In this document: piece after piece, positions 4,739-25,981 of the stretch
Layout of the letters: every line of letters begins with the position of its first letter
How positions within the stretch are numbered: the stretch's first letter is position 1
Origin: Acidobacteriaceae bacterium
GTDB lineage: Bacteria > Acidobacteriota > Terriglobia > Terriglobales > Acidobacteriaceae
NCBI GenBank assembly: GCA_030041515.1
Contig: JASHNS010000063.1
Coordinates: 1 to 35,220 of the forward strand
Direction: 5' to 3'
Length of the DNA: 35,220 nt
Translations under genes and position numbers: made by a program
Notes under the pieces: model-generated
What the model was told of the DNA's origin: nothing
What the model saw: the letters and a program-made list of their open reading frames with translations, nothing else
The model's database searches: none

Positions 4739-6331
4739 TTAACGCCCCTCGGCGGGCAGCGTTGCGCGCAGGGACTGTAAGCCATCAGCATGGGCGATCA
4801 AGCGCCCGTCGCAAAGAATCTCAAAGCCTTTACCGCAGTGATATCGTTGGCCCGTTCGGTCGTAGAGGATGGTCAGCAGGTGTCCGTGATAGGGCAGGCC
4901 ATCCAGGGCAAAGTAGCTCCATGTGTTGGGTGGCAGAAGAGGGTGCACGACGACTTCGTTTCCGGCCTGTGGCCTCAGCCCGATCAAACCGGTGATGATC
5001 AGATCGGCGTAGCCCGAATGGTTGTAATAGCGGCCGCGGTTTTTCGGCAGCGCGTGCCGGGCGAGAAGAATGTCGCGGGCAATCCATTCTCCCGTGTCGG
5101 GATCGAGATCCTCATCGATCCACGGAATGATTCGGCCACCGCGGAGACGAAGGTGCTGAGAGTGCGTATAGGTGCTGAGCAGGCGGAAATAGTCGTTTCT
5201 GGTCATGACCGTCTGGGCCGGCCCGTTGAGCAGATTCGCCAGGGCAACCAGCGTCTGGGTTGTGGCATACGGCCATGATGGACCGTTCCACAGGCACTCA
5301 TGATGCACCTTATACCGGAAGCGCGGACTGCTGCGCTCCGCGGTGGTCGGCCCGTACGCGCCCGCGAATCCATCCGGAAAGAACAGGAACTTCCACGCCA
5401 CATCGTGCTGCGGAGGTGGAATCTCGAAGTACCAGGGGATGTAGCCGATCAGCTCGCGCACGCCGGACCACCCCGATGCTGCGTGCCGCGCCACCGTCTC
5501 GTAAAACTCATCGTGCGGATTCCACAGGTGGCTCTCGATCAGCCCGCGCAGCCGGGCAGCCTCAGCCCGGTACTGGGCGGCAATCTGCTGATCTCCCGCC
5601 ACGGCTGCAATCCGCGAAATCGCCATGGCATCGCCGTACATATAACTGTTGATCGTCGGCCGGTAGCCGGTGCCGCTGATGCTGTCCTCCATCCCGTCGC
5701 GATCGTCGATCTGCCAGAAGAGGCCGTTCGCATCCTGGTGCGTTGCCTCCCACGCATGGTAGTTCCGTTCGAGCGCCGGCAGCAGGCTGACGGCCAGGCT
5801 GCGGTTTCCCGTCGCCAGATATAACTGATACACGGAGTCTGCCGCCCAGAAACTGTAGCGGCGCGGCTCTCCGTCGGGGCCGAACCAGAAGCGCGTGTAG
5901 TCGTCCACATATACCGGATCGCGCAGCCACCGCGCCTCTCTTATATGGTGGCCCGCGGCGGCGTCAATGGCATTGAATTTGCCCGCCCACGGAACGTCGT
6001 CGAGGAATTCGGTGATCACGTAACCGTCGGGCGTGCGCTCGAGATGCTTCTGGAACGCATACCAGCGGAAATAGTAGATCTGATTGATCTCCGCGTCGGG
6101 AGTGTCGAGCCACGGAATGTTCCGTACGAACCACTGCCACGGCAGCGGCGGAGCCGTGCCCAGCGTTTCCCGCTCATCGCGCGCAAAGCCGGTAAAGTAG
6201 TGCCGAAAATTTCCCGGCTCCAGTACCGACACCAAGGCCCGATCCTCGGCCCGCACTCCCGGGTGAAATGCAGCTGCCAGGGCAACGGCGAGGCACAGCC
6301 GCCTGGCGCGAAGTTTTACGGGAGTCATCAT
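4739..6331 (-). CDS. Secreted MGH1/GH63-like (alpha/alpha)6-barrel glycoside hydrolase
   Basis: A 530-residue protein with an N-terminal signal peptide (about 1-29, ending near GVRAED), so periplasmic or exported. The body looks like the mannosylglycerate-hydrolase-like / GH63 / trehalase-like toroid family: repeated aromatic- and acid-rich helical segments, DDRDGMEDSISG followed by RPTINSYMYGDAM, and NGPSWPYATTQT, which is typical of the active-site rim. It probably removes a sugar from the end of an oligosaccharide brought in by the neighbouring receptor; the linkage cannot be read from sequence. Its ATG overlaps the TGA of the upstream propeller gene by 4 nt (6328-6331), so the two are translationally coupled. 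It is the last gene of the minus-strand glycan operon. The family name is given from motif memory; substrate is unknown. Confidence 0.75.
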   Translation of the reverse strand: MMTPVKLRARRLCLAVALAAAFHPGVRAEDRALVSVLEPGNFRHYFTGFARDERETLGTAPPLPWQWFVRNIPWLDTPDAEINQIYYFRWYAFQKHLERTPDGYVITEFLDDVPWAGKFNAIDAAAGHHIREARWLRDPVYVDDYTRFWFGPDGEPRRYSFWAADSVYQLYLATGNRSLAVSLLPALERNYHAWEATHQDANGLFWQIDDRDGMEDSISGTGYRPTINSYMYGDAMAISRIAAVAGDQQIAAQYRAEAARLRGLIESHLWNPHDEFYETVARHAASGWSGVRELIGYIPWYFEIPPPQHDVAWKFLFFPDGFAGAYGPTTAERSSPRFRYKVHHECLWNGPSWPYATTQTLVALANLLNGPAQTVMTRNDYFRLLSTYTHSQHLRLRGGRIIPWIDEDLDPDTGEWIARDILLARHALPKNRGRYYNHSGYADLIITGLIGLRPQAGNEVVVHPLLPPNTWSYFALDGLPYHGHLLTILYDRTGQRYHCGKGFEILCDGRLIAHADGLQSLRATLPAEGR

Positions 6332-7299
6332 GCGGGCACGAACCCGAGGTCTTCCCCGTAGTGGAATGCCAGCCCGATCTGCTCAAAATGGTCGTTCCGC
6401 CCGTTGTACCAGAGCATCCAGCGGCCGCGCGAATAGACCGCGAAAGGCTTGTAGCAGGCGTCCGCATCCCATCCGCCCGGCGTCGGGCGAATGATGGGAT
6501 TCCCCGCGTTCCTGACCCAACCCGTAATTCCGTCTTTCGACCGAGCCATGCCGATCTGCGCGTGATCGATATCCCGAAAGCCGATGTAGAACGCGTAATA
6601 CCATCCCTTCCAGCGCAGAATCTGCGCCGCCGTCACCCGGTTCTTCTCCCACGGATACCGGGGATCTGCCTGCATCACCGGATTGGCCGAGTACTTATCC
6701 CAGTGCAGTCCGTCTCGGCTGGTGGCATAGCCGATGGCATTGGGCTCGTACTGCTCGCCGCCGGAATACCACATCTTCCATACCCCGTCGCTGCCGTCCC
6801 ACATGACATCCGGGCACATCACGGCTACGCCTTCCCACGACGCTTCCGCCGACAGCACCGGTTGCGACGATTGCCTCTTCCACGTCCTGCCGTCGGAGCT
6901 CGTCGCGTACCCGATCCACGATTTTCCCTTGGCCTGCCCCGTGTACCACATGTGATAACCGTCATTCCGGCGCACAACGCCGGGCCGATTGATGTCGTCT
7001 TCCCATCCCGTTTCCGGACGAGGTCCCAGCACGATCTCCGGCGGACTCCAGTGAATGCCGTCGCTGCTCTCTGAAAGAGCGATGCTCCGCTTCGGGCGCC
7101 AGGACAGCCACATCCTGTACACGCCGCGCTCATACCCCACACATACGTCGAAGCAGGTTCCGTATTTCCCTCCCAGCACCGGATCGCCGGGAAATTTGAC
7201 CCAGCTGCTTCCGCCATCGCCCAGCTGCCGCGCAGCGTGTGATAACGACGGTTCCAGCCCGGCGGCGGCCAGCATGAGCATCAGCTCTCTTCTATTCAT
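6328..7299 (-). CDS. Five-bladed beta-propeller glycosidase-like protein (GH43/GH130-like)
   Basis: A 323-residue protein starting with an RRE-containing signal-like N-terminus (MNRRELMLMLAAAGL), possibly Tat- or Sec-exported. It shows the blade repeats of clan GH-F/GH-J propellers: MWLSW, MWYTGQAKG, WIGYATSSDG, MWYSGG, IGYATSRDG, YAFYIGF, IGMARSKDG and MLWYNGR. Such proteins are glycosidases, phosphorylases or glycan-binding modules. The catalytic triad cannot be assigned by eye, although acidic residues after several blades (for example EDDINRP) are candidates. It overlaps the downstream hydrolase by 4 nt and follows the TonB-dependent receptor by 154 nt, in the usual order receptor then degradative enzymes. 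The start at 7299 lacks a strong Shine-Dalgarno sequence. Confidence 0.75.
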   Translation of the reverse strand: MNRRELMLMLAAAGLEPSLSHAARQLGDGGSSWVKFPGDPVLGGKYGTCFDVCVGYERGVYRMWLSWRPKRSIALSESSDGIHWSPPEIVLGPRPETGWEDDINRPGVVRRNDGYHMWYTGQAKGKSWIGYATSSDGRTWKRQSSQPVLSAEASWEGVAVMCPDVMWDGSDGVWKMWYSGGEQYEPNAIGYATSRDGLHWDKYSANPVMQADPRYPWEKNRVTAAQILRWKGWYYAFYIGFRDIDHAQIGMARSKDGITGWVRNAGNPIIRPTPGGWDADACYKPFAVYSRGRWMLWYNGRNDHFEQIGLAFHYGEDLGFVPA

Positions 7300-7453: not shown

Positions 7454-10400
7454 TCAGAATTTGAAGTGCAGAGACAACTGTAGGTTCCTCGGCGCATTAG
7501 TGCTGGTGCTGATGATGCCGAACCCCTGTGTGTCCGGTCCCACCGTATTGTTGTAGTCCGGAGCGTCCAGCACCACATGGTTGAGCACGTTAAACGCCTC
7601 GAGCTGGAAGCCCAGCTTGTAGTTCTCGTAGAGTGTGAACTCCTTGTCGAGACTGGTGCTGAAATTTTCGACACCCGATGCCGGACCCTTGAAGACGCCA
7701 TACGTGGCGTCTCCGAGGAACAGCCTCTGTCCCTGGCCGGGAATCGTGGCGACAGTGCCGTTGATAACATCCTGATCCGCTCTGACAAACTTGCTGGGGT
7801 CAAGCCAGCTCACGCCGATCTCGCTGCCGCCTGAGTAGACCGGCGCCTTTCGACTGCTGAGCAGCGCCCCGCCCCCCACATAATTCGCATTGCAGCCGGC
7901 CGAACTGAAATCGAACTGCGCGCAGTCGTAGTCGCCGATGCTGCCATACGGGCCGGTGCTGGCATTAACCGTCGCCCCGAGAGCCCAGCCGTCGACGATG
8001 TGGCGCGTCAGCCAGGAATCGCCGGGCAGGCCAGGCAGGTTGTATCTCAGGGCCAGAGCCATCGCATGAACCGTACCCGGGCTGTAATAATCGAGGGCGC
8101 AGTCCGCTTCGTAGCGGCAGCCCTGCTGTCCGGTGCTGCTGCTGAACGTATAGTTTCCCAGCAGGGTCAGGCCGTAGGAATATCTCTTCTGCACTTCCAC
8201 CTGGAGCGAGTTATACATGGAGTTATAGTCGGAGAAGAATTCGCTGATCCCGTTAAAGCCGGCGGGATAATACGGCTCGCGGGAAAATATATTGGCAGCG
8301 TCGTTCGTGCTTCCTCCCGGAACAAAGCGAGGCCAGTTGAGATTGTGCTGCTCGCTGAGATGCGTTCCCCTGGTCGCCACCCACGCGGCGGAGAAAACCC
8401 ACGTGTTGATCGGCTCGATCTGGAACTCCAGATTGAACTTGTGATACTGACCCGCGTTGTATCCCGGCGCCATAGCCTGGGTTGACAGAGGGGAGGGAAA
8501 AACAAGGGTATCTGCAGCCGGCGACCCCGCGGTCGGAACTTTATAGGGGAAGGGTACGCTGCCATACTGGGCATAAGGCTGCGAGAGATCCAGCCCCGGC
8601 CCCTGGGCGGGCGAGTAATCCACGCCGAAAGGCGCCTGTGTCGTATAACCGTTGAATCCGAGCGTGGTCAGATAGTCCGTATATTCGCCGTAGCCGCCTT
8701 TGAGCGCAGACTTACCATTTCCGCGTATATCCCACGCGAAGGACACTCTGGGCAGGACGTTGTAGCGGTCGCCGGTTAGGTTATTCGGGATTCCGCGGTC
8801 TCCAATGGTTACCAGTCCGGTAGGAGCAGTCGGGAAAACGGAAGACTGCTCTCCGGGAACGAAGGTGACGAATGCATTATTGGTTGGGCGCAGTCCGTAA
8901 TAAGGTTCCAGCCGCGCTCCGGCCATGACGGTCAGACGCGGCTTGAGTTTGATCGTGTCCTGAACATAGATGTCGCGGGCCGGGTAGTTGATATTGAGGT
9001 TTTGCGTGCTGTTTTGGTAGAAGCCTGCCCCAAATTGCCCCAGAGGACCACCGTTCAGCATCATGTCGGCGATGCCGTTGCCGGTGCCGCCGAAAACGTT
9101 GTCAGAGTCGTCGAACCACACGTCGGCTCCGGAATCGTAGGTCTGCTGGAATATTTCGTGGAAATTACGAAGCTCAAATCCTGCCTTAATCGTGTTTTTT
9201 CCCTTTGTCCACGTGAAATTGTCCGTGATATCCCACGTGAACTGGGTCATGGGATTGACGTACCCATTCCAGATATCCACGCCCATATTGCGGGGAGTGG
9301 AGATCTCCGCGATGTCCGGGGCCAGGGTATCGCCGACTGCATTAATTCCGGTATTGGATGGGTTGACGACTCCCGTGCAGGGAGCGCACGTATTGGTGAC
9401 GGAAATCTCTGTTTGGGTGATGCCCAGAACGAAGTTATTCAACATCGAGGGCTTAATTTGATAGGTGTCATTGACGGCCCACACTTTCGTCTGGATCGGT
9501 TCGCCCCAGGTTGCACCTGGGTTGGGGTATTGGGTCGCCCACGACGCCTCGCTGAACTCGTCATACATGTCCTGAAAGGTGGGATTGTCGTTATACCAGT
9601 AGAGGCTCCCGAAGACACGATTCCTGCTGCCGAGGTTCTCGTCTACCCGGACCACCCAGGTCTGGATCACGCTGACATCGCTGGGATTCCACGTAAATGT
9701 ATCGATGCCGCTGGTGGGGGCGGGCATAATGGCAGTTCCGCCCGAGGCGTTGAGAGACTTTCCTATGGGGCCAAAGTCGGATTGGGGAATCACCGGCATG
9801 GGGGTCCCGTTGACAACCGGAACTCCGTCAGGGGAATTGGTGAAGTCGCCGGTTCGTTCGGCGTTGGTAATGGTCTGCCCGGTGGTCGTGGACTGTTTCG
9901 ACGTGCTGGTGCGCTCGTAAGAAAGGAAGAAGAAAGTCTTGTTTCTTCCGTTATAGAGTTTGGGAAGCCACACGGGTCCGCCAACGTTGCCTCCGTACCA
10001 CTGCTGGTTGAAGGGCTGCCGGGGTACGTCCTGAAAGTTGTTGGACCAGGAGTTGGCATTCCATGCGCCATTCTGCAGGTAGGTCCAGAATTCGCCATGG
10101 ATCTGGTTGGTTCCGCTTTTCAGGGTAGCCTCAATTTGCCCGCCGGCAGCCTGCCCCACGGATGCATCGGGGAGGGCCGAGGCCACACTGAATTCGGCGA
10201 TATTCTCCTCCTGGGGATAATCGGTGGCTGCCGAGCCATGCATGTAGTCGTTCACGGCGGCGCCATCGATGTCGTAGTTGTTGCTGTACTGCGACACGCC
10301 GTTAAAGGTGGTGACAGGAATGAAGAAGCTCTGGCCGGTCCCGGCCGCCGTTGCGCCCGGCATCAGCGTCTCCATCGACTCCCGGGGGTCGCGCCCCTCC

Positions 10401-10963
10401 ACGGGGATGGCCTCGATCAGCGCAGGATCGATGGTGGTGAGGTTATTGGCGGTCTCCGTGTCCACCATCACCGACGATCCGGATACCGTTACCGTCTGCG
10501 TGGCCACGCCCACCCGCATCCTGACCGGCAAAGTGGCCGCTCCGCCGGCGTGCAGGACGACGTCTATGGCCATGAACCTGTCGAAGCCCTGAGCTTCACA
10601 GGTGACGGTGTAGGTTCCCGCCTGGAGCGAGACAAACTGATACAAGCCGATTGCATTGCTGGTCGTCCGTGACGAAACTCCGGTGGCGACGTTGTGCACG
10701 GTCACCACCGCATTCGGAATCACGGCTCCGCTTTGGTCGCTGACCGTACCGGACAGCGACGCAGAGATGTCCACCTGCGCGTGCAGAGCGGGCAACCACG
10801 GCCCCGCACCGAGCAGCGCCAGAACCAGCAGGGCCAGATTGCGGGAAAGGAATGCGATGCAGCGCCGCTTCGCCAGACCTGCACGAACGCCATCGACTGC
10901 GCCTGTCTCCATATTGTCTCCAGTCAAAATCGAAACCGATGAACCCACTCGTGCCGTGCGCAT
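7454..10963 (-). CDS. Oar-like TonB-dependent outer-membrane receptor (glycan locus)
   Basis: A 1169-residue outer-membrane receptor. After a signal sequence (about 38-63, ending ALHAQ) comes a carboxypeptidase-regulatory/Ig-like domain (SGTVSDQSGAVIPNAVV, about 68-150), then a plug-like part and a long beta-barrel ending in an aromatic residue (LSLHFKF). This is the Oar/CarboxypepD_reg type abundant in Acidobacteria, the functional counterpart of SusC. It imports a bulky ligand with TonB energy. Its place between a sugar-sensing regulatory set upstream and two glycosidase-like genes downstream suggests an oligosaccharide ligand (inference). GAGGT sits 7 nt before the ATG at 10963. A promoter and a candidate regulator site lie upstream (11029-11095). 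Confidence 0.93.
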   Translation of the reverse strand: MRTARVGSSVSILTGDNMETGAVDGVRAGLAKRRCIAFLSRNLALLVLALLGAGPWLPALHAQVDISASLSGTVSDQSGAVIPNAVVTVHNVATGVSSRTTSNAIGLYQFVSLQAGTYTVTCEAQGFDRFMAIDVVLHAGGAATLPVRMRVGVATQTVTVSGSSVMVDTETANNLTTIDPALIEAIPVEGRDPRESMETLMPGATAAGTGQSFFIPVTTFNGVSQYSNNYDIDGAAVNDYMHGSAATDYPQEENIAEFSVASALPDASVGQAAGGQIEATLKSGTNQIHGEFWTYLQNGAWNANSWSNNFQDVPRQPFNQQWYGGNVGGPVWLPKLYNGRNKTFFFLSYERTSTSKQSTTTGQTITNAERTGDFTNSPDGVPVVNGTPMPVIPQSDFGPIGKSLNASGGTAIMPAPTSGIDTFTWNPSDVSVIQTWVVRVDENLGSRNRVFGSLYWYNDNPTFQDMYDEFSEASWATQYPNPGATWGEPIQTKVWAVNDTYQIKPSMLNNFVLGITQTEISVTNTCAPCTGVVNPSNTGINAVGDTLAPDIAEISTPRNMGVDIWNGYVNPMTQFTWDITDNFTWTKGKNTIKAGFELRNFHEIFQQTYDSGADVWFDDSDNVFGGTGNGIADMMLNGGPLGQFGAGFYQNSTQNLNINYPARDIYVQDTIKLKPRLTVMAGARLEPYYGLRPTNNAFVTFVPGEQSSVFPTAPTGLVTIGDRGIPNNLTGDRYNVLPRVSFAWDIRGNGKSALKGGYGEYTDYLTTLGFNGYTTQAPFGVDYSPAQGPGLDLSQPYAQYGSVPFPYKVPTAGSPAADTLVFPSPLSTQAMAPGYNAGQYHKFNLEFQIEPINTWVFSAAWVATRGTHLSEQHNLNWPRFVPGGSTNDAANIFSREPYYPAGFNGISEFFSDYNSMYNSLQVEVQKRYSYGLTLLGNYTFSSSTGQQGCRYEADCALDYYSPGTVHAMALALRYNLPGLPGDSWLTRHIVDGWALGATVNASTGPYGSIGDYDCAQFDFSSAGCNANYVGGGALLSSRKAPVYSGGSEIGVSWLDPSKFVRADQDVINGTVATIPGQGQRLFLGDATYGVFKGPASGVENFSTSLDKEFTLYENYKLGFQLEAFNVLNHVVLDAPDYNNTVGPDTQGFGIISTSTNAPRNLQLSLHFKF

Positions 10964-11028
10964 GGATTTACCTCTGTGTGCCTATCTGTTCAGCGCGGCG
11001 AGGGATGCGATCCGGGGAACGACGGAAC

Positions 11029-11056
11029 TTTATAGAGAGAAGCGCAGGGCGGTCAT
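11029..11056 (-). promoter_or_regulatory. Candidate sigma70 promoter of the receptor operon
   Basis: On the minus strand, -35 ATGACC (11056-11051) and -10 TATAAA (11034-11029) are separated by 16 bp. Transcription would start near 11022, giving a leader of about 60 nt. The -35 is imperfect, as expected for an activator-dependent promoter. The three-half-site operator ends 9 bp upstream of the -35. Confidence 0.55.
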
Positions 11057-11065
11057 GATGGCATT

Positions 11066-11095
11066 GCACCATTCTTGCGTGGTGCGGATGCACCA
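11066..11095 (-). promoter_or_regulatory. Operator A: three half-sites upstream of the receptor promoter
   Basis: Read on the minus strand: TGGTGC (11095-11090), N4, GCACCA (11085-11080), N8, TGGTGC (11071-11066). The first two halves form a perfect dyad and the third repeats the first. The block would span roughly -44 to -73 of the receptor promoter, a standard activator position. The same arrangement recurs at 15223-15253 beside the response regulator gene. NarL/LuxR-type regulators bind such inverted repeats, so the regulator at 14511-15155 is the obvious candidate (inference). Confidence 0.65.
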
Positions 11096-11246
11096 TGGCA
11101 GTCTGCGGGGCTCAGCCTGCAGCCGAGGCCAGGCGCCGAGAGGCGGCTGCGGTTGGCGATATATTGCCAGGTGCGCTCGGACTCTTCGGCCGGTTTCCGG
11201 GCGGGCGCCCGGCACGCTCCGTTCTGAGCCGCCTCGGGAGTGGAAG

Positions 11247-12728
11247 CTAACCCTCGCGGTCTGCCGCAGGAGTTGGCTTCCTGCCAGGCAGCATCCGCTG
11301 CAGCCGAATCCAGCCGGATGCGGAGCCCTGCCGCACAGCAGCCATGAGGCGTCCCGCAACATTGGTCCGCAGACTGACCTCGGCGCAGACGCTTGTGCCT
11401 TTGCCCGGTTCGCTTTCCACGCTGAAGTTGCCCCGCACGGCGCGCATCCTTTCCCGCATGCCCGCCAGGCCGACCCCCTGGGTCCGCAGCGTGCCGGACT
11501 TGAATCCGACCCCATTGTCGCGCACCACCAGACGCACGCTGGCCGGGAGATAGTCCAGATACACGTCCAGCGCTGACGGCCGTCCATGCCGTAATGCATT
11601 CGCGATAGCCTCCTGGGCCACGCGATAGAGGGTGTCGGTAGTGGCCAGAGGGAGGCGCGCAGCGGTTCCCCTGGTCACGAAGCGCGCTTCCAGCGCACAC
11701 TCCGTGGTGCTCTGCTCGAGCGCGGTTTGCAGCGCCGATTGCAGATCGGCGCCCTCGGCCAGCGGCTGCGGACGCAGCATCATAATGCTGCGGTGCGCCT
11801 CGGAGTGGCTGTGGCGCACCATATCCAGCGCCAGGTCGAGGTGCCGGACCAGCCTTTCGCTGTTGCCCGGGACAATCTTCCTGGCCGCCTGAATCTGGAA
11901 TGACAAGCCGGCGAAGCTCTGGGCCAGAGTGTCGTGCAGCTGGTGCCCCAGTTTGGCGCGCTCCGCTAGGATCGCCTGAAAGCGGGCTTTCAGCATCTGC
12001 ACCGCCGCAATGTGTCCCGCGAGAATCAGAGCGGCCAGCAGGATTCCCAGTTCGAGGAGATCGGTGAGGCTCCACCATGGCGGCCCCGCGGTCACCGATA
12101 TGTCCTGGGCCGAACGCAGCAGCACAGCGAATCCGCCCATGTACCTGGTGTCGCCTGGCCGAAGCGAGCAGATGCCCTGAAGGCGCAGCACCGATCCGGC
12201 TTGCAGGGCCGGCAACAGAGAATTTCCCTGCCCTCCGTCGAGGTGAGCGACGAATTTCTGGTGTCCACTCCTGAGAATCAGCCAGGTTTCCCCGTTCCAC
12301 TTTTTCGTATCGATCAATTCGCCATTCAGTTCGATGAGCAGGTCAGCGAATTTGCCCAGCGTGGCCTCCTCCGCCGTTACCGACAACGGCGGCATCGGAG
12401 AGCCGTGCCACAACAGGGCGGCGTGGCTCCCGCTGAGAATCAGCCCGGCTTCCGTTTCCTGCGCGCTCCCCGTAACCAGCAGTTCGTCTCCGATCCTGAG
12501 GCCCTGCGCCGGCAGACCCCGGATCGCCGCTCCGCCGGTGGAGTCCTGTATGTACGAAGGATTTCCGCTGAATGTAAGGGTTCCTCGCACGGTGACCATC
12601 TCGCCGACCACCTGCGGCAGCGCGGCGATCTCCGCAATGGAGGCGTACGGAGCGCTGCGCGGAGCCCTCGCGGCAGGCGCGGCCTGCAGCGTCATCACAA
12701 CGGACAGAAACGCGCAAAGTGCACCCAT
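11247..12728 (-). CDS. HisKA_3-type sensor histidine kinase with OB-fold-like sensor region
   Basis: A 493-residue kinase: signal/first membrane segment (1-20), a long periplasmic region (about 28-215), a membrane helix (about 223-243), then a NarX/LiaS-type kinase core with phospho-acceptor His265 in LGHQLHDTLAQS, N-box TLYRVAQEAIANALRHG, DNGVGF and GVGLAGMRERM. The periplasmic region looks like two OB-fold-type barrels: VGEMVTVRGTLTF...YIQDSTGGAAIRG...IGDELLVTGSA, and a second from about 130 to 190. Similar OB-type sensors occur in acidobacterial kinases. It follows the jelly-roll gene by 19 nt with a GAGGT site before the ATG, and belongs with the LuxR-type regulator two genes upstream. 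It may read the periplasmic sugar-binding protein rather than free sugar (inference). Confidence 0.88.
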   Translation of the reverse strand: MGALCAFLSVVMTLQAAPAARAPRSAPYASIAEIAALPQVVGEMVTVRGTLTFSGNPSYIQDSTGGAAIRGLPAQGLRIGDELLVTGSAQETEAGLILSGSHAALLWHGSPMPPLSVTAEEATLGKFADLLIELNGELIDTKKWNGETWLILRSGHQKFVAHLDGGQGNSLLPALQAGSVLRLQGICSLRPGDTRYMGGFAVLLRSAQDISVTAGPPWWSLTDLLELGILLAALILAGHIAAVQMLKARFQAILAERAKLGHQLHDTLAQSFAGLSFQIQAARKIVPGNSERLVRHLDLALDMVRHSHSEAHRSIMMLRPQPLAEGADLQSALQTALEQSTTECALEARFVTRGTAARLPLATTDTLYRVAQEAIANALRHGRPSALDVYLDYLPASVRLVVRDNGVGFKSGTLRTQGVGLAGMRERMRAVRGNFSVESEPGKGTSVCAEVSLRTNVAGRLMAAVRQGSASGWIRLQRMLPGRKPTPAADREG

Positions 12729-12747
12729 ATGCTTTACCTCAGGCGGC

Positions 12748-13410
12748 TCATGCGCCTGGCTGGCCTTTCAGTGCGGTGACGACGATATTCTTCCACTGCC
12801 CGCCGGAGTCATAAGAGCGCAGGCCGATCTCTCCCTGTTTGAAACACGGCGCCAGCTTTACATCGAGCCGGACTACGTCTCGAGCCGCGTCGCGCCAGGA
12901 GAGAGCCTTCAGGTCGCAGCCGCGGACCTCGAGGTGAATGTGATACCACACGCTGGGGACGATCGGACTGGGCAGCGGCTCCGCTCCCAGCTCGTTCCAC
13001 GCGTGATCCGCAACGCCGACCACCAGCGACTCATCGCGAACCCGCAGGCCCACGTAGATGCCGCTGTAGGAATCCACTCCCGGCTCGGCGTCTGAAACTC
13101 TGGCGATGATCCCCGCTTCCCCGGTGTTGCTCAGCGCAACATCGGCATCCATTGCATAGTTATTCCAGTAAGGCGAGCCAGTGACCAGTTTGGCTCCCCG
13201 TTCGTTCGACTCGTTGACCATGGCGCCGGACTGAACCGTCCAGTTCCCGTCGTACGCCACCCAGCCCGCGGCGTCTCCGCTCGCGAATTCGTCGTGGTAG
13301 GGCAGCCCCCGCGTCGGCGAATGGAGAACGCGGAGAACGCCGCCCGTCGCTAATAAGCCAAACGGTATCGCGGCGGCAAAAACGATGAGGTCTCTGATCA
13401 GCGGTCGCAT
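12748..13410 (-). CDS. Membrane-anchored jelly-roll (DUF1080/LamG-like) protein
   Basis: A 220-residue protein from the ATG at 13410, chosen because AAGGT lies 6 nt upstream; the open frame extends to 13473, but without such a site. One N-terminal membrane helix (about 7-27) anchors a single beta-sandwich domain with typical concanavalin-like strands: DEFASGDAAGWVAYDGNWTV, AMDADVALSNTGEAGIIARV, YSGIYVGLRV, WYHIHLEVRG, GEIGLRSYDSGGQWKNIVV. This fold (3-keto-disaccharide hydrolase / LamG / CBM66-like) binds or cleaves glycans. It sits between the sugar-binding protein and the sensor kinase in the same operon, so an accessory role in signal perception is more likely than bulk degradation (inference). 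No catalytic residues are identifiable by eye. Confidence 0.75.
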   Translation of the reverse strand: MRPLIRDLIVFAAAIPFGLLATGGVLRVLHSPTRGLPYHDEFASGDAAGWVAYDGNWTVQSGAMVNESNERGAKLVTGSPYWNNYAMDADVALSNTGEAGIIARVSDAEPGVDSYSGIYVGLRVRDESLVVGVADHAWNELGAEPLPSPIVPSVWYHIHLEVRGCDLKALSWRDAARDVVRLDVKLAPCFKQGEIGLRSYDSGGQWKNIVVTALKGQPGA

Positions 13411-13479
13411 GGACCGACCTTCTCGAGCCGGCTGCGCCGACCGGATTGGCCGATGCGCGGTGTGGCCGCGCACGGTTCG

Positions 13480-14451
13480 TCATTCACTGCCATTCGGTGC
13501 CGAACTCTCCCGGGTGAGAAGTTGCACGCTTACCTGGCTCGGCGGCGGAAGAGGCTGCCCGCGGATGCCAGCCAGAGCCGCCTGCGCTGCAAGATAGCCC
13601 ATTCGATATCCGTCGGCAGTAACCAGCGAGTCGAGTTTTCCTTCCTGAAGGCTGACGGCGAGAAAGAGATCGCGATCCGACCCGATCAGCGATATCCTGC
13701 GCCGCGCGTCGGTATCTTCCAAGGCCAGCATGGCGCCCTGGGTGGCATCGGCGCTCACGGCAAAAATCGCTCTGAGCTGCGGATAGCTGCTGATCAGTTC
13801 CCGGGTGTTCTGCTCGGCTTCCATAATCTGCACAGCTCCGGGTGTCTCCGCAACCACGCGAATCCCCGGCCAGGCAGCGATGGCCCGAAGAAAACTGTCG
13901 GCTCGGGAAAGCGTCTCGGGCGTTCCCCGGTCCATCCCCACAATGGCCGCTTCTCCGCTTCCGTGCATCACCATGGCCGCTCTGGCCGCCGCGAGTTGTC
14001 CGAGCTCCTCCTGGTCGGGGGTCACGGATGTCAGGTACGGTCCGGTGGGCTGGGCAGGCCCGGTTTGCACGAACACCACCGGGATATGCCGCTCCGTAAA
14101 TCCGTTCACCATGGTGGTCACACCCCAGATATTCGTCGGGCCCAGAATGAGCGCGTGCGCGCCGTGCTGCACTGCGTTTTCGGCGATGCGAATCTGCCGG
14201 TCCAAGTCGTCCTCCCGCGTCGGACCGTTCCAGTAAATCTGATATCCCGCGGCGCTCGCCGCCGCTTCCGCTCCGCGGCGCATGTCTTCCATGAAGTCTG
14301 TCCCGGTGGTGCGGGGAATAAACGCGATCGCCGGCGCCGGTGGAGGCTCCCGCAATGCGGGCAGCAGCGCGGCGAGACAGCCGCAGCCGCCGCCCAGCGC
14401 CGCTGCCGCCAGCGCCCGCGCGATCCGCCTCAAGTGGAGTATTATCGGCAC
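13480..14451 (-). CDS. Periplasmic sugar-binding protein (Peripla_BP_4 / RbsB-like), no ABC partner
   Basis: A 323-residue type I periplasmic binding protein of the ribose/galactose class. After an N-terminal hydrophobic segment (about 10-33) it shows the family pattern: IAFIPRTTGTDFMEDMRRGAE at strand 1, HALILGPTN, IPVVFVQTG, AIVGMDRGTPETLSRADSF, LRAIFAVSADATQGAM, ISLIGSDRD and DSLVTADGYRMGYLAAQAAL. No permease or ATPase gene is near. Instead the gene lies between a response regulator and a sensor kinase, which suggests it feeds a kinase, as ChvE does for VirA. The start is GTG at 14451 with AAAGGAG very close upstream. Whether it is a lipoprotein, membrane-tethered or soluble is unclear. 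Confidence 0.85.
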   Translation of the reverse strand: MPIILHLRRIARALAAAALGGGCGCLAALLPALREPPPAPAIAFIPRTTGTDFMEDMRRGAEAAASAAGYQIYWNGPTREDDLDRQIRIAENAVQHGAHALILGPTNIWGVTTMVNGFTERHIPVVFVQTGPAQPTGPYLTSVTPDQEELGQLAAARAAMVMHGSGEAAIVGMDRGTPETLSRADSFLRAIAAWPGIRVVAETPGAVQIMEAEQNTRELISSYPQLRAIFAVSADATQGAMLALEDTDARRRISLIGSDRDLFLAVSLQEGKLDSLVTADGYRMGYLAAQAALAGIRGQPLPPPSQVSVQLLTRESSAPNGSE

Positions 14452-14475
14452 GCTCTCCTTTGCAGCCTCCCGTCA

Positions 14476-14509
14476 CCCCCGGTGGGCGCGCTCGCGCCTC
14501 GGCCGGGGG
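14476..14509. terminator. Strong GC hairpin between the response regulator and binding-protein genes
   Basis: Outer stem CCCCCGG (14476-14482) with CCGGGGG (14503-14509) and inner stem GGCGCG with CGCGCC around a 2-nt loop. On the plus strand it is followed by TTTATT; on the minus strand (the direction of both genes) there is no T-run. It lies just after the regulator stop and 25 nt before the binding-protein GTG. It may protect or attenuate the mRNA, or stop antisense transcription. Confidence 0.45.
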
Positions 14510-14510
14510 T

Positions 14511-15155
14511 TTATTCCTTCAGCTTCACCAGCCCGCGGCGCAGAGCAATGGTGGCGGCTTCCGTCCGGTCCTTGGCGTTCAGTTTGGAGAGAAGGCTGAT
14601 CACATGATTTCTGGCCGTGATGTCGCTGATACCCAGCGCCTGGGCAATCTCCTTGTTGGTCAGTCCGTCCACCACCAGCTCCAGCACCTCCTGCTCACGG
14701 CCGCTCAGCGTGGAGCGGCCCATGTTTTCGGCGAGGCGCATGGCCAGCGCCGCGGGAATCCGCCGCTTGCCCTGGTGCACGGCTCTAATGGCCTCAATCA
14801 CTTCTTCCTGGGAAGCGCTCTTCAGCAGATACCCCAAAGCCCCCGCTTCGATGGCGTTGGAGATATCTTCGTCGAACTGATAGTTCGTCAGCACCAGAAC
14901 CCGGCTCTCGTGGTGAGCGCTGCGCAGTGCGTGGATCACCTCGACGCCGCTCATGTCCGGCATGCGCAGATCCAGCAGCACCACGTCGGGATTCAGCCGC
15001 TCCGCAAGCTCCAGGCCTTCTCGTCCGGAGCTGGCCATCCCCACGACACTGATGCCCGATTCACCATCGAGCATGCTGTGCAAACCCCGTCGCACAACCG
15101 GATGGTCATCCACGACCAATATCCGGATGCATTCTCTCTCGGCCGTTATCGCCAT
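14511..15155 (-). CDS. NarL/LuxR-family response regulator
   Basis: A 214-residue two-domain regulator. The receiver carries the acidic pair in RILVVDDHPVVRRGL, the phospho-Asp in DVVLLDLRMPDMSG and the Lys in GYLLKSAS. The C-terminal LuxR-type helix-turn-helix is LSGREQEVLELVVDGLTNKEIA followed by LGISDITARNHVISLLSKL. ATG at 15155 places the receiver at residue 9, as usual; an upstream in-frame start at 15236 would add 27 unrelated residues and overlap the operator. It is the first gene of the regulatory operon (regulator, sugar-binding protein, jelly-roll protein, kinase) and the probable binder of operators A and B. A TATACT -10 box at 15194-15189 would give a leader of about 27 nt. Confidence 0.92.
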   Translation of the reverse strand: MAITAERECIRILVVDDHPVVRRGLHSMLDGESGISVVGMASSGREGLELAERLNPDVVLLDLRMPDMSGVEVIHALRSAHHESRVLVLTNYQFDEDISNAIEAGALGYLLKSASQEEVIEAIRAVHQGKRRIPAALAMRLAENMGRSTLSGREQEVLELVVDGLTNKEIAQALGISDITARNHVISLLSKLNAKDRTEAATIALRRGLVKLKE

Positions 15156-15188
15156 CGTGCAGCCATCTTCGCGCTCACAACGCGGAAA

Positions 15189-15194
15189 AGTATA
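15189..15194 (-). promoter_or_regulatory. Candidate -10 box of the regulatory operon
   Basis: TATACT on the minus strand matches five of six consensus bases. The sequence 17 bp upstream (GAAACG, 15217-15212) is a poor -35. Operator B begins about 40 bp upstream of the presumed start, so autoregulation is possible. Confidence 0.4.
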
Positions 15195-15222
15195 GCAGCA
15201 GCTTTCCTGCCCGTTTCGGACA

Positions 15223-15253
15223 TGGTGCGAATGCACTACTCCGCGCGTGGTGC
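15223..15253 (+). promoter_or_regulatory. Operator B: three half-sites in the divergent regulator/TPR region
   Basis: On the plus strand: TGGTGC (15223-15228), N4, GCACTA (15233-15238), N9, TGGTGC (15248-15253). One mismatch in the middle half-site and one extra spacer base separate it from operator A at 11066-11095. A CA dinucleotide precedes the first half-site in both copies. It lies between the -10 box of the regulator operon and the candidate promoter of the TPR gene, 10 bp before the latter's -35. Confidence 0.65.
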
Positions 15254-15263
15254 ATGTGAATCA

Positions 15264-15293
15264 TTGACGCGCGTTTTTCCTGCCGCATACAGT
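15264..15293 (+). promoter_or_regulatory. Candidate promoter of the TPR gene
   Basis: -35 TTGACG (15264-15269), an 18-bp spacer and -10 TACAGT (15288-15293). Transcription would start near 15300, leaving a leader of about 20 nt. The spacing to the operator (10 bp) nearly equals that at the receptor promoter (9 bp), which supports both assignments. Confidence 0.5.
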
Positions 15294-15319
15294 TTTCTGC
15301 ACGGTCTTTTCCGCAGTCC

Positions 15320-16627
15320 ATGAAGCCGCTGCCTGGGCCAACCCGACACGTCCGGCATCGCAGCGTTGCCGCTGGCGCGCCATTCCTGTGGCGGATCGGC
15401 TGTTGCTGCGCCCTGATCCTGCTGGCCGTGACCGCGCATGGCTCGGCCGCGCTCCTGTACGCGCAGACGGCCGCAGCGCCGGCGCAGGACATCCCGGGCC
15501 TGGCTCAGCAGGCTGACGCCGATCTTCACGGCAACCGGCCGGCCGACGCCGCTGCAATCTACCGCAGGATTCTGGCTGACGCTCCGGACAACATCGCCGC
15601 CCGTTCTAACCTCGGCCTGGCCTACTATCTCCAGCGGCGTTACTCCGAGGCGTCCGAAGAGTTCCGTACCGTACTGCAGCGCAGTCCCGAGCTCTGGAAC
15701 ATCGTGGCTCTCTGCGGTCTCGCCGAAGCGCAGTCCGGCAAGGATGCGGAAGCGATCGGCCACCTCACTACCGGATTCGACCGGGTGAGCGAGCCGTCAC
15801 TGCGCATGGCCGCCGGTACGCAGCTCTACAGCCTGCTGATGGCCGCCGGCGATCTGGAGCGCGCCGCCCAGGTGGTCGCGAGGCTGCAGCAGATCGACCC
15901 GACAAATGTCGACGTGCTCTACGCCGCTCATCAGGTCTATTCGCTGCTTGCCGATCGCGCGTTTCAGTCGCTGGCACACGTCGCGCCGGATTCGGCTCGC
16001 ATGTTCGAGTTGCAGGGAGACGAGCTCGCGCAGGTGGGCGATATGCCCGCCGCCATTCTTGCCTACCGGCATGCGATCGTCCTCAATCCGCATCTCTCCG
16101 GCGTTCATTTTGCGCTGGGCGAAGCGCTGAGCGCTTCTCGCTCCCTCACCGATCAGGCGCAGGCTGAAGGCGAGTACCGCGAGGCTCTCGCCGACGACCC
16201 ACGGGACGAGCGCGCCGACTGCCGGCTGGGCACGATCGCCATGAAGCATGCGCAGCCGGGCGCCGCCGTACGCTATTTCGAGGACGCCCTCCGCCTGCGG
16301 CCCGACGATCCCGAAGCCAATAAGGGGCTCGGCATCGCGCTCACGGTCTCCGGATCGGTCCAGGAGGCGGTCATCTATCTGAATCGCGCCATTCAGGCCG
16401 ATCCCTTCGATGAATCCGCTTATTATCACCTGAGCCTTGCGGAAAGGCGCGCGGGCGATGTGCAGGCGGCCAAACAGGCGATGGACGAATTCGTGCGCAT
16501 CAAGACGAGGAGAGACCACCTCGCGCGCGACTATCAGAACCTGATGAATGCTGCCGCACCCTCGACGCGGAAAGGCGCTCCGGCTCACACTGCCGGCGCG
16601 TCCGCCGCGCCCCCGAGTGGACCGTAG
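15320..16627 (+). CDS. Secreted or membrane-anchored TPR-repeat protein
   Basis: A 435-residue protein with a hydrophobic export signal (about 25-50) followed by tetratricopeptide repeats over most of its length. Clear units include DAAAIYRRILADAPDNIAAR-, YSEASEEFRTVLQRSPE, PAAILAYRHAIVLNPHLSG, EGEYREALADDPRDERA, AAVRYFEDALRLRPDDPEA and EAVIYLNRAIQADPFDES. The C-terminus is an Ala/Pro/Ser-rich tail. TPR proteins scaffold complexes; in Acidobacteria they often accompany Oar-like receptors. It is divergent from the response regulator and has its own copy of the operator, so it probably belongs to the same regulon (inference). No Shine-Dalgarno sequence precedes the ATG. Confidence 0.88.
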   Translation: MKPLPGPTRHVRHRSVAAGAPFLWRIGCCCALILLAVTAHGSAALLYAQTAAAPAQDIPGLAQQADADLHGNRPADAAAIYRRILADAPDNIAARSNLGLAYYLQRRYSEASEEFRTVLQRSPELWNIVALCGLAEAQSGKDAEAIGHLTTGFDRVSEPSLRMAAGTQLYSLLMAAGDLERAAQVVARLQQIDPTNVDVLYAAHQVYSLLADRAFQSLAHVAPDSARMFELQGDELAQVGDMPAAILAYRHAIVLNPHLSGVHFALGEALSASRSLTDQAQAEGEYREALADDPRDERADCRLGTIAMKHAQPGAAVRYFEDALRLRPDDPEANKGLGIALTVSGSVQEAVIYLNRAIQADPFDESAYYHLSLAERRAGDVQAAKQAMDEFVRIKTRRDHLARDYQNLMNAAAPSTRKGAPAHTAGASAAPPSGP

Positions 16628-19591: not shown

Positions 19592-22036
19592 TTACCGATC
19601 CGGATAAATCAGAGCGGCCCGGCGTTTCTCCATGAAGGCTTCCAGCGTCGGCCGCCATCCTTCCGAGATATACTCCGGGTCCTCTCCGGCAGTAATCTGA
19701 GCCAGCACCTGCTGGTTGGCCAGCAGAAAGTTCATCTTCTGTAACTGATACTGATCGGGATAGAAGCGGTGCAGCGCCGCGGCGATTTCGACGCCCAGTT
19801 CCGGCGAATTGAGCTCATTGCGCGCCGTCACCAGAATTCGCACCGCGCTGCATTGTTGGCCGGCATACGGATACGGCTTATCCGGCGTGAACTCCACCGG
19901 ATAGAAGCGCACGCCCGGAATATCGCGGCGGTTCAGGTACATGGCGAGAGCCCGGCCATGAATCCACGGCGCGCCAAACTCCTCAAAGGGCGTATCCGTT
20001 CCGCGTCCCACAGAGATGTTCGTGCCCTCAATCAGCCCCAGTGCCGGATACAGCGTCTCCTCCTCCACATCGTGCAGGTTGGGCGAGGGATCGACCCAGG
20101 AAAGTCCGGTGGAGTCGTACCAGTCGCCGCGCTGCCAGCCCTTCATGGCAACGACCGTGAGCGGCGCGTGCAGATTCAGCTGCTGGTTGTCATAGCGGGC
20201 CAGCTCGCCCAGCGTCATGCCGTTGCGCACCGGGATAGGCATGGAATTGACGTAGCTCTCCGGACCATCGGAGACCGGTCCCTGCACAAACGCGCCATTG
20301 ATGGGATCGGGGCGGTCGAGCACCACGATATCGGTCCCGGTTTTCGCCGCCGCTTCCAGAAAGTAGCGAATCAGCGTTTCATAGGTGTACTCGCGAACTC
20401 CGACGTCCTGCAGGTCGATGACGACCGCGTCCAGATTGCGCAAAGTTGCGAGCGATGGATGGCGCGACGCGGCTGTCGTGCCGTACAGGCTGATGACCGG
20501 CAATTCGGTGGCTGCATCCGTCGAATTGGGAATGCCGGGCCGGTCATAGGCGCCGCTGACGCCGCTCTCGGGACCAAAGAGCGTGGTCAGCTTCAGCCCC
20601 GGCACTGCGGCAGCCGCGTCGTGATAGAGCACGTCGATCGTGCTCCGTCCCTGCGAGTCGACGCCCGTCAGGTTGGTGAGCAGACCCAGCCGCAGATGCC
20701 CTCCATGCTCCAGCGCCAGCGCCGCCAGCTCCGCAAAGTGGTCGCTCTCCAGCACGTCGATACCGGTCTGCACGTTGGCATTGCGCGCGGCCCAGCGCCG
20801 CATCCCGCTCAGTGACTCGTTGTAGCCCGTAATGTGCGCAGCCAGCGTGCCGCCATTTGCGTGGATGCCGAGCGCCACTGCGACTACATTCGCAATTTCG
20901 CCGCGCAGCTCGGTGATGCCTGTTGGGCCGTTCGGATGGACCGCGTTCGCCAGGATGATAACGTAGCTGTCGCTGCTCGGATCAATCCACACGGAGGTGC
21001 CCGTGAACCCGGTGTGTCCGAACGATCCCACCGGAAACAGCGTTCCGCGGTTGCTGGAGTAGTGCGAGTCGATATCCCATCCGAAACCGCGCAGCGCTGT
21101 TCCAGTCGCAGGCTGTTCCGGCGCCACCATCTTTTCCAGCACGCGGCGTGAAAGCGGAAACTTACTTGGCTGGCCATTCAGACGATCCAGCAGATTCTGT
21201 GCATAGACGGAGAGATCGTCGGCGTCCATGAAGAGCCCCGCATGACCAGCCACGCCGCCCATGCGCCGCGAAGTCGGGTCGTGCACCACGCCGCGCAGCA
21301 TCACGTCGCCGGCGAAGGTGTGCGAGCCAGGAATGCCGGACGCCGCTTCTCCATGCTCCCATTGCGTTGGAGCGATGCGCTGAATCCAGGACTTCGGGGG
21401 CAAAAAGCGCGTGTATTTCAGTCCCATGGGCTGGAAGATGTACTTCAGCACATAGTCATTCAGCGGCATGCCGGAAATCTTCTCTACCAGCGCGCCGAGC
21501 ACGATAAAGTTGACGTCGCTGTACTGGAAGCGGACGCCCGGCGGACGGAGCGGTACGCTATCGAACGCGAGCTGGTAGCCAGCCTGCTTGCCATACCAGG
21601 GCTCGATGAGTGGCAGGTCAGGGATCAGGCCGGAGTAATGCGTCAGCAGATCGCGAATCGTGATGTCGCCCTTGCCGTTGGCCGCGAATGCCGGCAGATA
21701 CTGCGCCACCGGTGCATCCACATTGATCTTGCCTTCCTGATACAGCTGCATCACGGCCGGAGCCGTTGCTATCACTTTGGTGAGCGAGGCCATATCGAAA
21801 ATCGTGTCGACCGTCATCTTCTCGCGATCCGGCACCAGCGAACGCATGCCAAAGGCCTGCCGGAACACCACTTTGCCGTCGTGGCCCACGATCACCACGG
21901 CGCCCGGCAACTTATGGTTCGCGATGCCCTGGTTCACAATCGGAGCGATCGCCGAGAAGTTGTATTGCGCACAGGCTTGCCCGGCAAACAGCATCGTGCA
22001 CAACAGAAGAGGCCCAACGTTAAGAAAACGGCGCAT
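19592..22036 (-). CDS. Fusion: class C beta-lactamase-fold serine hydrolase + NamZ-type exo-N-acetylmuramidase (DUF1343)
   Basis: An 814-residue secreted protein (signal about 1-23) with two enzymes. Residues 25-395 are an AmpC-like serine hydrolase: Ser84-x-x-Lys87 in DMASLTK, Tyr172 in YSDVN, and HTG at 341-343 in place of KTG. Residues about 423-814 are DUF1343, the family of NamZ (GH171), which releases MurNAc from the non-reducing end of peptidoglycan chains. Diagnostic runs include IDVLESDHF, LFGPESGVSG (Glu490), VVIDLQDVGVREYTY, LDRPDPING and PALGLIEGTNISVGRGT. In Bacillus subtilis the corresponding activities are separate neighbours (AmiE/YbbE and NamZ/YbbC). Here they would remove stem peptides and then MurNAc from the same glycan. 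AAAGGAG lies 8-9 nt before the ATG. Confidence 0.9.
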   Translation of the reverse strand: MRRFLNVGPLLLCTMLFAGQACAQYNFSAIAPIVNQGIANHKLPGAVVIVGHDGKVVFRQAFGMRSLVPDREKMTVDTIFDMASLTKVIATAPAVMQLYQEGKINVDAPVAQYLPAFAANGKGDITIRDLLTHYSGLIPDLPLIEPWYGKQAGYQLAFDSVPLRPPGVRFQYSDVNFIVLGALVEKISGMPLNDYVLKYIFQPMGLKYTRFLPPKSWIQRIAPTQWEHGEAASGIPGSHTFAGDVMLRGVVHDPTSRRMGGVAGHAGLFMDADDLSVYAQNLLDRLNGQPSKFPLSRRVLEKMVAPEQPATGTALRGFGWDIDSHYSSNRGTLFPVGSFGHTGFTGTSVWIDPSSDSYVIILANAVHPNGPTGITELRGEIANVVAVALGIHANGGTLAAHITGYNESLSGMRRWAARNANVQTGIDVLESDHFAELAALALEHGGHLRLGLLTNLTGVDSQGRSTIDVLYHDAAAAVPGLKLTTLFGPESGVSGAYDRPGIPNSTDAATELPVISLYGTTAASRHPSLATLRNLDAVVIDLQDVGVREYTYETLIRYFLEAAAKTGTDIVVLDRPDPINGAFVQGPVSDGPESYVNSMPIPVRNGMTLGELARYDNQQLNLHAPLTVVAMKGWQRGDWYDSTGLSWVDPSPNLHDVEEETLYPALGLIEGTNISVGRGTDTPFEEFGAPWIHGRALAMYLNRRDIPGVRFYPVEFTPDKPYPYAGQQCSAVRILVTARNELNSPELGVEIAAALHRFYPDQYQLQKMNFLLANQQVLAQITAGEDPEYISEGWRPTLEAFMEKRRAALIYPDR

Positions 22037-25945: not shown

Positions 25946-25981
25946 TGGATCGCCTCCGGGGAAATTGCTGGCCACGCAGCT

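Follow-up and report, generated by a model that had tools for sequence, protein, structure and literature searches.

Escherichia coli NarL activates ogt from sites centred at -44.5 and -77.5, and a site engineered to lie at -67.5 is functional too (PMC7419079). The sites of Bacillus subtilis ComA are inverted hexamers with a 4-nt spacer, and the promoters tested needed a weaker second site downstream (PMC4797271). The present analysis concerns two similar DNA elements in a stretch of 35,220 nucleotides from an Acidobacteriaceae bacterium (GenBank assembly GCA_030041515.1, contig JASHNS010000063.1), which is the whole contig (C97) of a 4.77-Mb draft genome and is referred to below as the window. 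As judged from sequence, both elements are very probably operators of a NarL-family response regulator encoded between them, which would activate receptor and glycosidase genes through tandem sites, each made of two inverted 7-mers separated by 2 bp (7-2-7 sites). To our knowledge, regulation in the Acidobacteriaceae, a soil group, has been little studied.

Two tandem operators in one locus

An earlier, sequence-only reading of this DNA had described the pattern TGGTGC-N4-GCACYA-N8/9-TGGTGC, which is found exactly at 11095-11066 (minus strand) and 15223-15253 (plus strand). Its three half-sites stand but its count does not, a fourth, inverted and degenerate half-site having been overlooked: CCATCA at 11061-11056 (minus strand) in operator 1 and GAATCA at 15258-15263 in operator 2. 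There are thus four half-sites in two palindromes, and each operator consists of two 16-bp palindromes in tandem, separated by 8 or 9 bp and with centres 24-25 bp apart, abutting the -35 hexamer (Table 1). Scored on the 24 specified positions of a double-palindrome model, the window copies show two mismatches, both in the last half-site; by eye, the first palindromes are one mismatch from TRGTNCA-NN-TGNACYA.

The exact motif has only these two matches in the window and none in 100 dinucleotide-preserving shuffles, in line with the earlier opinion that chance hardly explains it. A scan of the genome and its relatives, as that reading had suggested, found the exact pattern at four places in 3 of 398 family genomes, all of them this locus (the two in the window, plus one each in G009 and G326), against one place for the reversed pattern as control. 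Many unrelated genomic copies, which the earlier reading would have counted against its proposal, did not turn up. The copy in G009 is not independent, because the matched proteins of that locus (L056, on the 9,069-bp contig C448) are 99.5-100% identical to those of the window to the right of 15223. G009 was counted as another species of the genus, and shared binning or a very recent transfer is possible for the near-identity of L056. The earlier reading had seen no third copy, and no third tandem copy was found in the own genome either: when the flanks of the places matching a single palindrome, TGGTGCNNNNGCACYA, at one mismatch or less were scored, all others had at least five mismatches, against two in the window copies, although sites with both palindromes two or more bases off TGGTGCNNNNGCACYA escape that search. 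The regulon therefore looks local.

Conservation in orthologous loci

A search with the periplasmic sugar-binding protein of the locus at E <=1e-60 returned 3 of the 398 genomes, the own genome included, and led to two orthologous loci, L020 (on the same contig as the G326 match) and L058 (in G354). Both have the gene order regulator, binding protein, LamG protein, kinase, receptor, GH130-like protein, with identities in L020 and L058, respectively, of 78% and 74% for the regulator and 75% and 62% for the receptor. The tandem operator is present 5' of both orthologous receptor genes (L020 11247-11286, with 4 or 5 mismatches by strand; L058 7048-7009, with 3 or 4), which is the conservation that the earlier reading had called for. 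In a three-way alignment of the receptor upstream regions, the operator block, running into ATCATGAC, is clearly conserved by eye, and 18 bp past it stands TAAAGT, TAACGT or TAGAGT.

On the side of the regulator and TPR genes, L020 carries an operator at 7053-7014 with one mismatch to the double-palindrome model and GAACCA as its fourth half. L058 has a single palindrome, TGGTGCATATGCACCG, 5' of the regulator gene, and no TPR match in the stretch examined. Autoregulation is favoured because this single palindrome adjoins the regulator gene in a stretch with no TPR match. Of the regulon proposed earlier, the receptor-glycosidase operon is supported, and the membership of the TPR gene is less certain.

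The promoter elements given by the sequence-only reading were kept in part. TTGACG and TACAGT remain, but for the receptor gene the proposed -10 element TATAAA, at 16 bp, is without a counterpart in the orthologs, and TAAAGT, which aligns with their TAACGT and TAGAGT, is likelier. Both orthologs have ATGACN and TANNGT at equal spacing in the receptor-gene promoter, and the 41 paralogous sites described below show a weak resemblance at these positions. A scan for sigma-70-like promoters over positions 10900-15400 did not pick up the predicted TonB gene promoter, which is too weak. If TGCTATACT serves the regulator gene, the first palindrome of operator 2 would be centred near -48.

A family of operators in paralogous loci

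Paralogous loci were reached through sugar-binding homologs at about 28-38% identity, and 78 were examined: 18 from a first search and 60 from a second search of 91 rows, among which 11 of the 18 also occurred. Seventeen of the 91 rows lay outside the 78-locus set, and one of these was later examined as L176. A kinase is present in the stretch examined in 71 of the 78 loci. A generic palindrome, TRGTNCANNTGNACYA (TRGTNCA-NN-TGNACYA type), was fixed from 7 loci and tested on the other 71, where it gave 26 exact matches and 58 at one mismatch or less, against 0/3 in the reversed and 0/4 in the Markov control. Most of the 58 matches (52) adjoin TonB, binding-protein or regulator genes. None was found in the seven loci lacking a kinase in the stretch examined, one of which, L165, runs into a contig end soon after the binding-protein gene. 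Under a strict rule for receptor 5' ends, with a kinase present, 60 loci were eligible; 41 of them carry TRGTNCANNTGNACYA at most 500 bp 5' of the receptor gene, and the remaining 19 lack it there. A looser rule gave 61 loci, also 41 with the palindrome.

The 41 paralogous sites have the 7-2-7 arrangement, with TRGTNCA-NN-TGNACYA at one mismatch or less. A third half-site follows at offset 25 (z score 7.6), and an inverted fourth half-site at offset 35 (z 4.0). With the sites aligned on palindrome 1, TGGT stands at 25-28, C at 37 and CATGC at 39-43. If TANNNT at 64-69 is taken as the -10 element, the palindromes would be centred near -67.5 and -43.5. Two described site types were considered and rejected. 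The NarL heptamer is TACYYMT, and all 41 sites have G as their third base, so that the arrangement is NarL-like and the site is not that of NarL. A ComA-like direct repeat as fourth half-site scored z -3.3 at offset 36, against 4.0 for the inverted one at offset 35.

In 16 loci a further palindrome, at one mismatch or less, lies shortly 3' of the regulator gene and is not directed at the receptor gene. Of seven open reading frames (ORFs) scanned downstream of such regulator-side palindromes, three lack a Pfam match and the other four encode GH127 arabinofuranosidase-like proteins. L163 (8819-8858) and L071 (4935-4896, minus strand) have a seeming second tandem operator after the regulator gene, the second palindrome of which ends in CTCATGC or ATCATGC, as it does 5' of receptor genes.

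Regulators with a LacI headpiece

Six regulators in the 78 loci combine a receiver and a weak GerE domain with a C-terminal LacI headpiece (PF00356, E 3.1e-15 to 4.7e-17); their GerE domain is undetected, below or barely above the Pfam threshold. A family search at E <=1e-52 found seven full-length regulators of this kind in the 398 genomes, in six genera. The receptor-directed NarL-type palindrome occurs in none of the five eligible LacI-headed loci, against 41 of 55 with an ordinary regulator (Fisher p 0.0021, uncorrected for relatedness). Anywhere in the locus, a NarL-type match at one mismatch or less is found in 1 of 7 LacI-headed loci (L153, where it lies inside the kinase gene), compared with 46 of the 65 ordinary loci that include a kinase.

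LacI-type palindromes stand instead between the binding-protein and receptor genes in four of the five eligible LacI-headed loci: L065, L137, L147 and L152 each have two or three there, at one mismatch or less (e.g. TGTAAGCGCTTCCA), and L153 has none. L157 has one LacI-type palindrome 370 bp after the regulator gene. L176 has one (with one mismatch) 50 bp before the binding-protein gene and an exact one 1.1 kb away, and no NarL-type site at one mismatch or less. The type of operator thus tracks the DNA-binding domain of the regulator. Of all the evidence for binding of the operator by the regulator, this domain swap in nature is the strongest.

A caveat is that a LacI-type site, at one mismatch or less, also lies within 260 bp of palindrome 1 in 17 of the 41 ordinary loci. 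The LacI-type palindrome TGNAANCGNTTNCA (one mismatch or less) was observed at offsets 97-108 in 11 of the 41 sites (e.g. L064, L071, L136 and L163); counted from the start of palindrome 1, these offsets fall immediately beyond the predicted transcription start. The promoters of ordinary loci may be under the control of a separate LacI repressor, and the headed regulators may have adopted a LacI-type site that was already there.

We are inclined, if only slightly, to see in these loci a large Acidobacteriaceae family of sugar-sensing systems, in each of which a NarL-type regulator, together with a binding protein and a LamG-sensor kinase, acts on tandem 7-2-7 operators in front of a TonB receptor gene. 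In one branch DNA binding would have passed to an added LacI headpiece while the old helix-turn-helix (HTH) decayed, and at the same intergenic position NarL-type operators would have given way to LacI-type ones. If so, this would be a LacI-type regulator controlled by phosphorylation and a natural domain-swap experiment.

Proposed mechanism and alternatives

A sugar fragment would bind the periplasmic sugar-binding protein, which would signal through the LamG-like protein and the sensor kinase, and the kinase would then phosphorylate the regulator. As two dimers, the regulator would bind the two tandem 7-2-7 palindromes, the strong distal one near -67.5 and the weak proximal one near -43.5, abutting the -35 hexamer, as placed from the predicted -10. 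The bound regulator would recruit RNA polymerase to promoters with an 18-bp spacer. The predicted targets are the TonB receptor-glycosidase operon and, via operator 2, the TPR gene; the regulatory operon is probably a target of operator 2 as well. The sequence comparisons show the tandem architecture, its conservation and the way it follows the DNA-binding domain of the regulator, whereas binding, phosphorylation, activation and the ligand are inferred. The sequence-only reading was right about the operator and most likely also about the regulator.

Several observations weigh against such activation by the linked regulator. In the own genome the single relaxed palindrome is not enriched (58 rows for TGGTGCNNNNGCACYA at one mismatch or less, against 113 in the reversed control); it is the tandem arrangement that is distinctive. 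For the exact generic pattern, 9 places in 9 genomes compare with 20 for the reversed control; none of the nine is in the own genome, the two sites of which are one mismatch off, and six of the nine lie inside binding-protein loci or no more than 170 bp upstream of them. Among the 55 eligible loci of the ordinary kind, 14 showed no receptor-directed palindrome at one mismatch or less. The signal of the fourth half-site is weak, with z values of up to 3.3 (inverted) and 3.7 (direct, offset 34) elsewhere, and so is the -10 signal, T64, A65 and T69-70 being much weaker than the other conserved positions of the 41-site alignment. By eye, no obvious promoter stands at the equivalent distance from the TPR-side operator of L020. 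The covariation of recognition-helix residue Ile179 with half-site base 5 (rank 2 of 213 columns in 44 sequences, 5 of 213 in 39 representatives; the six LacI-headed regulators of L065, L137, L147, L152, L153 and L157 left out) hints faintly at binding by the regulator. At position 179, F or Y goes with A in 7 of 8 cases, N with C or T in 25 of 26, and I with G in 3 of 4. The covariation is confounded by clade, residues outside the helix (Leu137, Thr90) ranking equal or higher.

It is rather unlikely that the regulator represses from the sites that it binds and that phosphorylation releases or rearranges the complex. The sign of regulation is not fixed by position alone, and operator 2 lies between two divergent genes; however, both palindromes precede the predicted -10 and reach only as far as the -35, and the LacI-type sites (of a usually repressing type) past the predicted start in the 11 sites mentioned above suggest a separate layer of repression. 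A still less probable case, which we consider very unlikely, is that the operator belongs to an unlinked regulator and that the neighbouring response regulator acts elsewhere. Binding by the neighbour is deduced from sequence comparison, and the LacI-type sites in 17 of the 41 ordinary loci suggest that other regulators act there too; against this, the tandem operator is specific to the locus in 398 genomes, and the generic palindrome is missing both from the seven loci without a kinase in the stretch examined and before the receptor gene of the five eligible LacI-headed ones. An origin of the repeats as a duplicated piece of promoter or as the ends of a mobile element, with no regulatory meaning, can practically be dismissed: two similar copies do lie 4.1 kb apart in one locus, but their half-sites and spacing agree while the spacer sequences differ, orthologs retain the half-sites amid diverged surrounding DNA, and paralogs retain the architecture with different half-site bases.

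Genes of the locus

The regulator belongs to the NarL/FixJ family, PF00072 and PF00196 both scoring above cutoff; NarL is its top-scoring NCBIfam model, yet far under the cutoff of that model. The ORF at 13484-14476 was discarded as the sugar-binding protein, being out of frame with the overlapping gene (Table 1). Of the 71 kinase ORFs in paralogous loci, 67 begin with a fused LamG-like domain, which in the window is a separate neighbouring gene. Because of this fusion, the LamG-like protein is probably the sensor domain of a sensor that is split in the window. A TonB receptor is present, and no SusD lipoprotein match was found among the subset of window ORFs scanned. Elsewhere in the window, 19592-22036 encodes a beta-lactamase-family domain fused with a NamZ exo-N-acetylmuramidase, near a second TonB receptor (22496-25975); the two are perhaps a peptidoglycan-fragment locus.

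Table 1. Operators, predicted promoters and genes of the window locus, and LacI-headed regulators of paralogous loci.
Feature	Position	Strand	Sequence or support
Operator 1, 5' of TonB receptor gene	11056..11095	-	Clearly conserved by eye when the three orthologous upstream regions are aligned
Operator 1, palindrome 1	11095-11080	-	TGGTGCATCCGCACCA
Operator 1, palindrome 2, after 8-bp spacer	11071-11056	-	TGGTGCAATGCCATCA, right half degenerate
Operator 2, between TPR gene and regulator gene	15223..15263	+	Ortholog copy at L020 7053-7014
Operator 2, palindrome 1	15223-15238	+	TGGTGCGAATGCACTA
Operator 2, palindrome 2, after 9-bp spacer	15248-15263	+	TGGTGCATGTGAATCA
Predicted TonB gene promoter	11027..11056	-	-35 ATGACC 11056-11051, 18 bp, -10 TAAAGT 11032-11027
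Predicted TPR gene promoter	15264..15293	+	TTGACG-18-TACAGT; sole sigma-70-like match in 10900-15400
Possible extended -10 of regulator gene	15189..15197	-	TGCTATACT, read from sequence
MGH1/GH63-like glycosidase, 3' of receptor gene, same strand	4739..6331	-	PF22422 E 2.1e-76
GH130/GH32-like protein, 3' of receptor gene, same strand	6328..7299	-	
TonB-dependent receptor, OMP_b-brl_4, carboxypeptidase-regulatory-like N-terminus; main predicted target	7454..10963	-	PF25183 E 1.2e-129
Sensor histidine kinase	11247..12728	-	HisKA_3 + HATPase_c
LamG / 3-keto-disaccharide-hydrolase-like protein	12748..13473	-	PF06439 E 2e-8
Periplasmic sugar-binding protein	13480..14451	-	PF13407 E 1.1e-43; PDB sugar-binding homologs
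Response regulator, receiver + GerE/LuxR HTH (NarL family)	14511..15155	-	PF00072 E 2e-29, PF00196 E 3.6e-18
TPR protein, predicted operator 2 target	15320..16627	+	Ortholog 53% in L020, no match in L058
LacI-headed regulator	L065 4653-5594		Pfam
LacI-headed regulator	L137 7838-8911		Pfam
LacI-headed regulator	L147 8018-8902		Pfam
LacI-headed regulator	L152 2018-3202		Pfam
LacI-headed regulator	L153 8071-8940		Pfam
LacI-headed regulator	L157 8006-8917		Pfam
LacI-headed regulator, seventh	L176 3724-4656		Family search
LacI-type sites named for L147 or L065			TGKAAGCGNTTMCA

Comparison with described systems

Among the titles and abstract openings listed from the open-access literature, outside which most subscription-journal papers lie, none deals with this operator family or with a response regulator that has a LacI headpiece. 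The operators would provide a readable code for the glycan-uptake systems of Acidobacteriaceae, in which sequence alone could be enough to match receptor operons with their sensors, and the LacI-headed regulators would offer a natural test of the joint evolutionary exchange of output domain and operators.

The ogt sites share with this locus a NarL-family regulator, two inverted 7-mers with a 2-bp gap, and two tandem sites, one of them abutting the -35; the native sites are centred 33 bp apart, compared with 24-25 bp here (PMC7419079). NarL responds to nitrate, whereas the signal here would be a sugar. ComA sites are alike in the inverted repeat with a 4-nt spacer and in the arrangement of the first three half-sites, but the second ComA site is a direct repeat with a 5-nt spacer, whereas the fourth half is inverted here (PMC4797271).

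The genes of the locus resemble those of CuaD-CuaS-CuaR and XylFII-LytS, in which the gene for a sugar-binding protein stands beside those for a kinase and a regulator, and in the Cua system such a three-component sensor controls uptake genes (PMC10384115). In the window and in both orthologs the sugar-binding protein is likewise encoded with the kinase and the regulator. CuaR differs in its output domain, which is of the AraC type (PMC10384115); in this locus the output is of the NarL type, with a LamG-like sensor domain and a TonB receptor as the predicted target. The hybrid systems of Bacteroides are also a form of two-component control over polysaccharide utilization genes, with the difference that one hybrid protein serves there, in place of the separate kinase, regulator and binding protein encoded here (PMC11253607).

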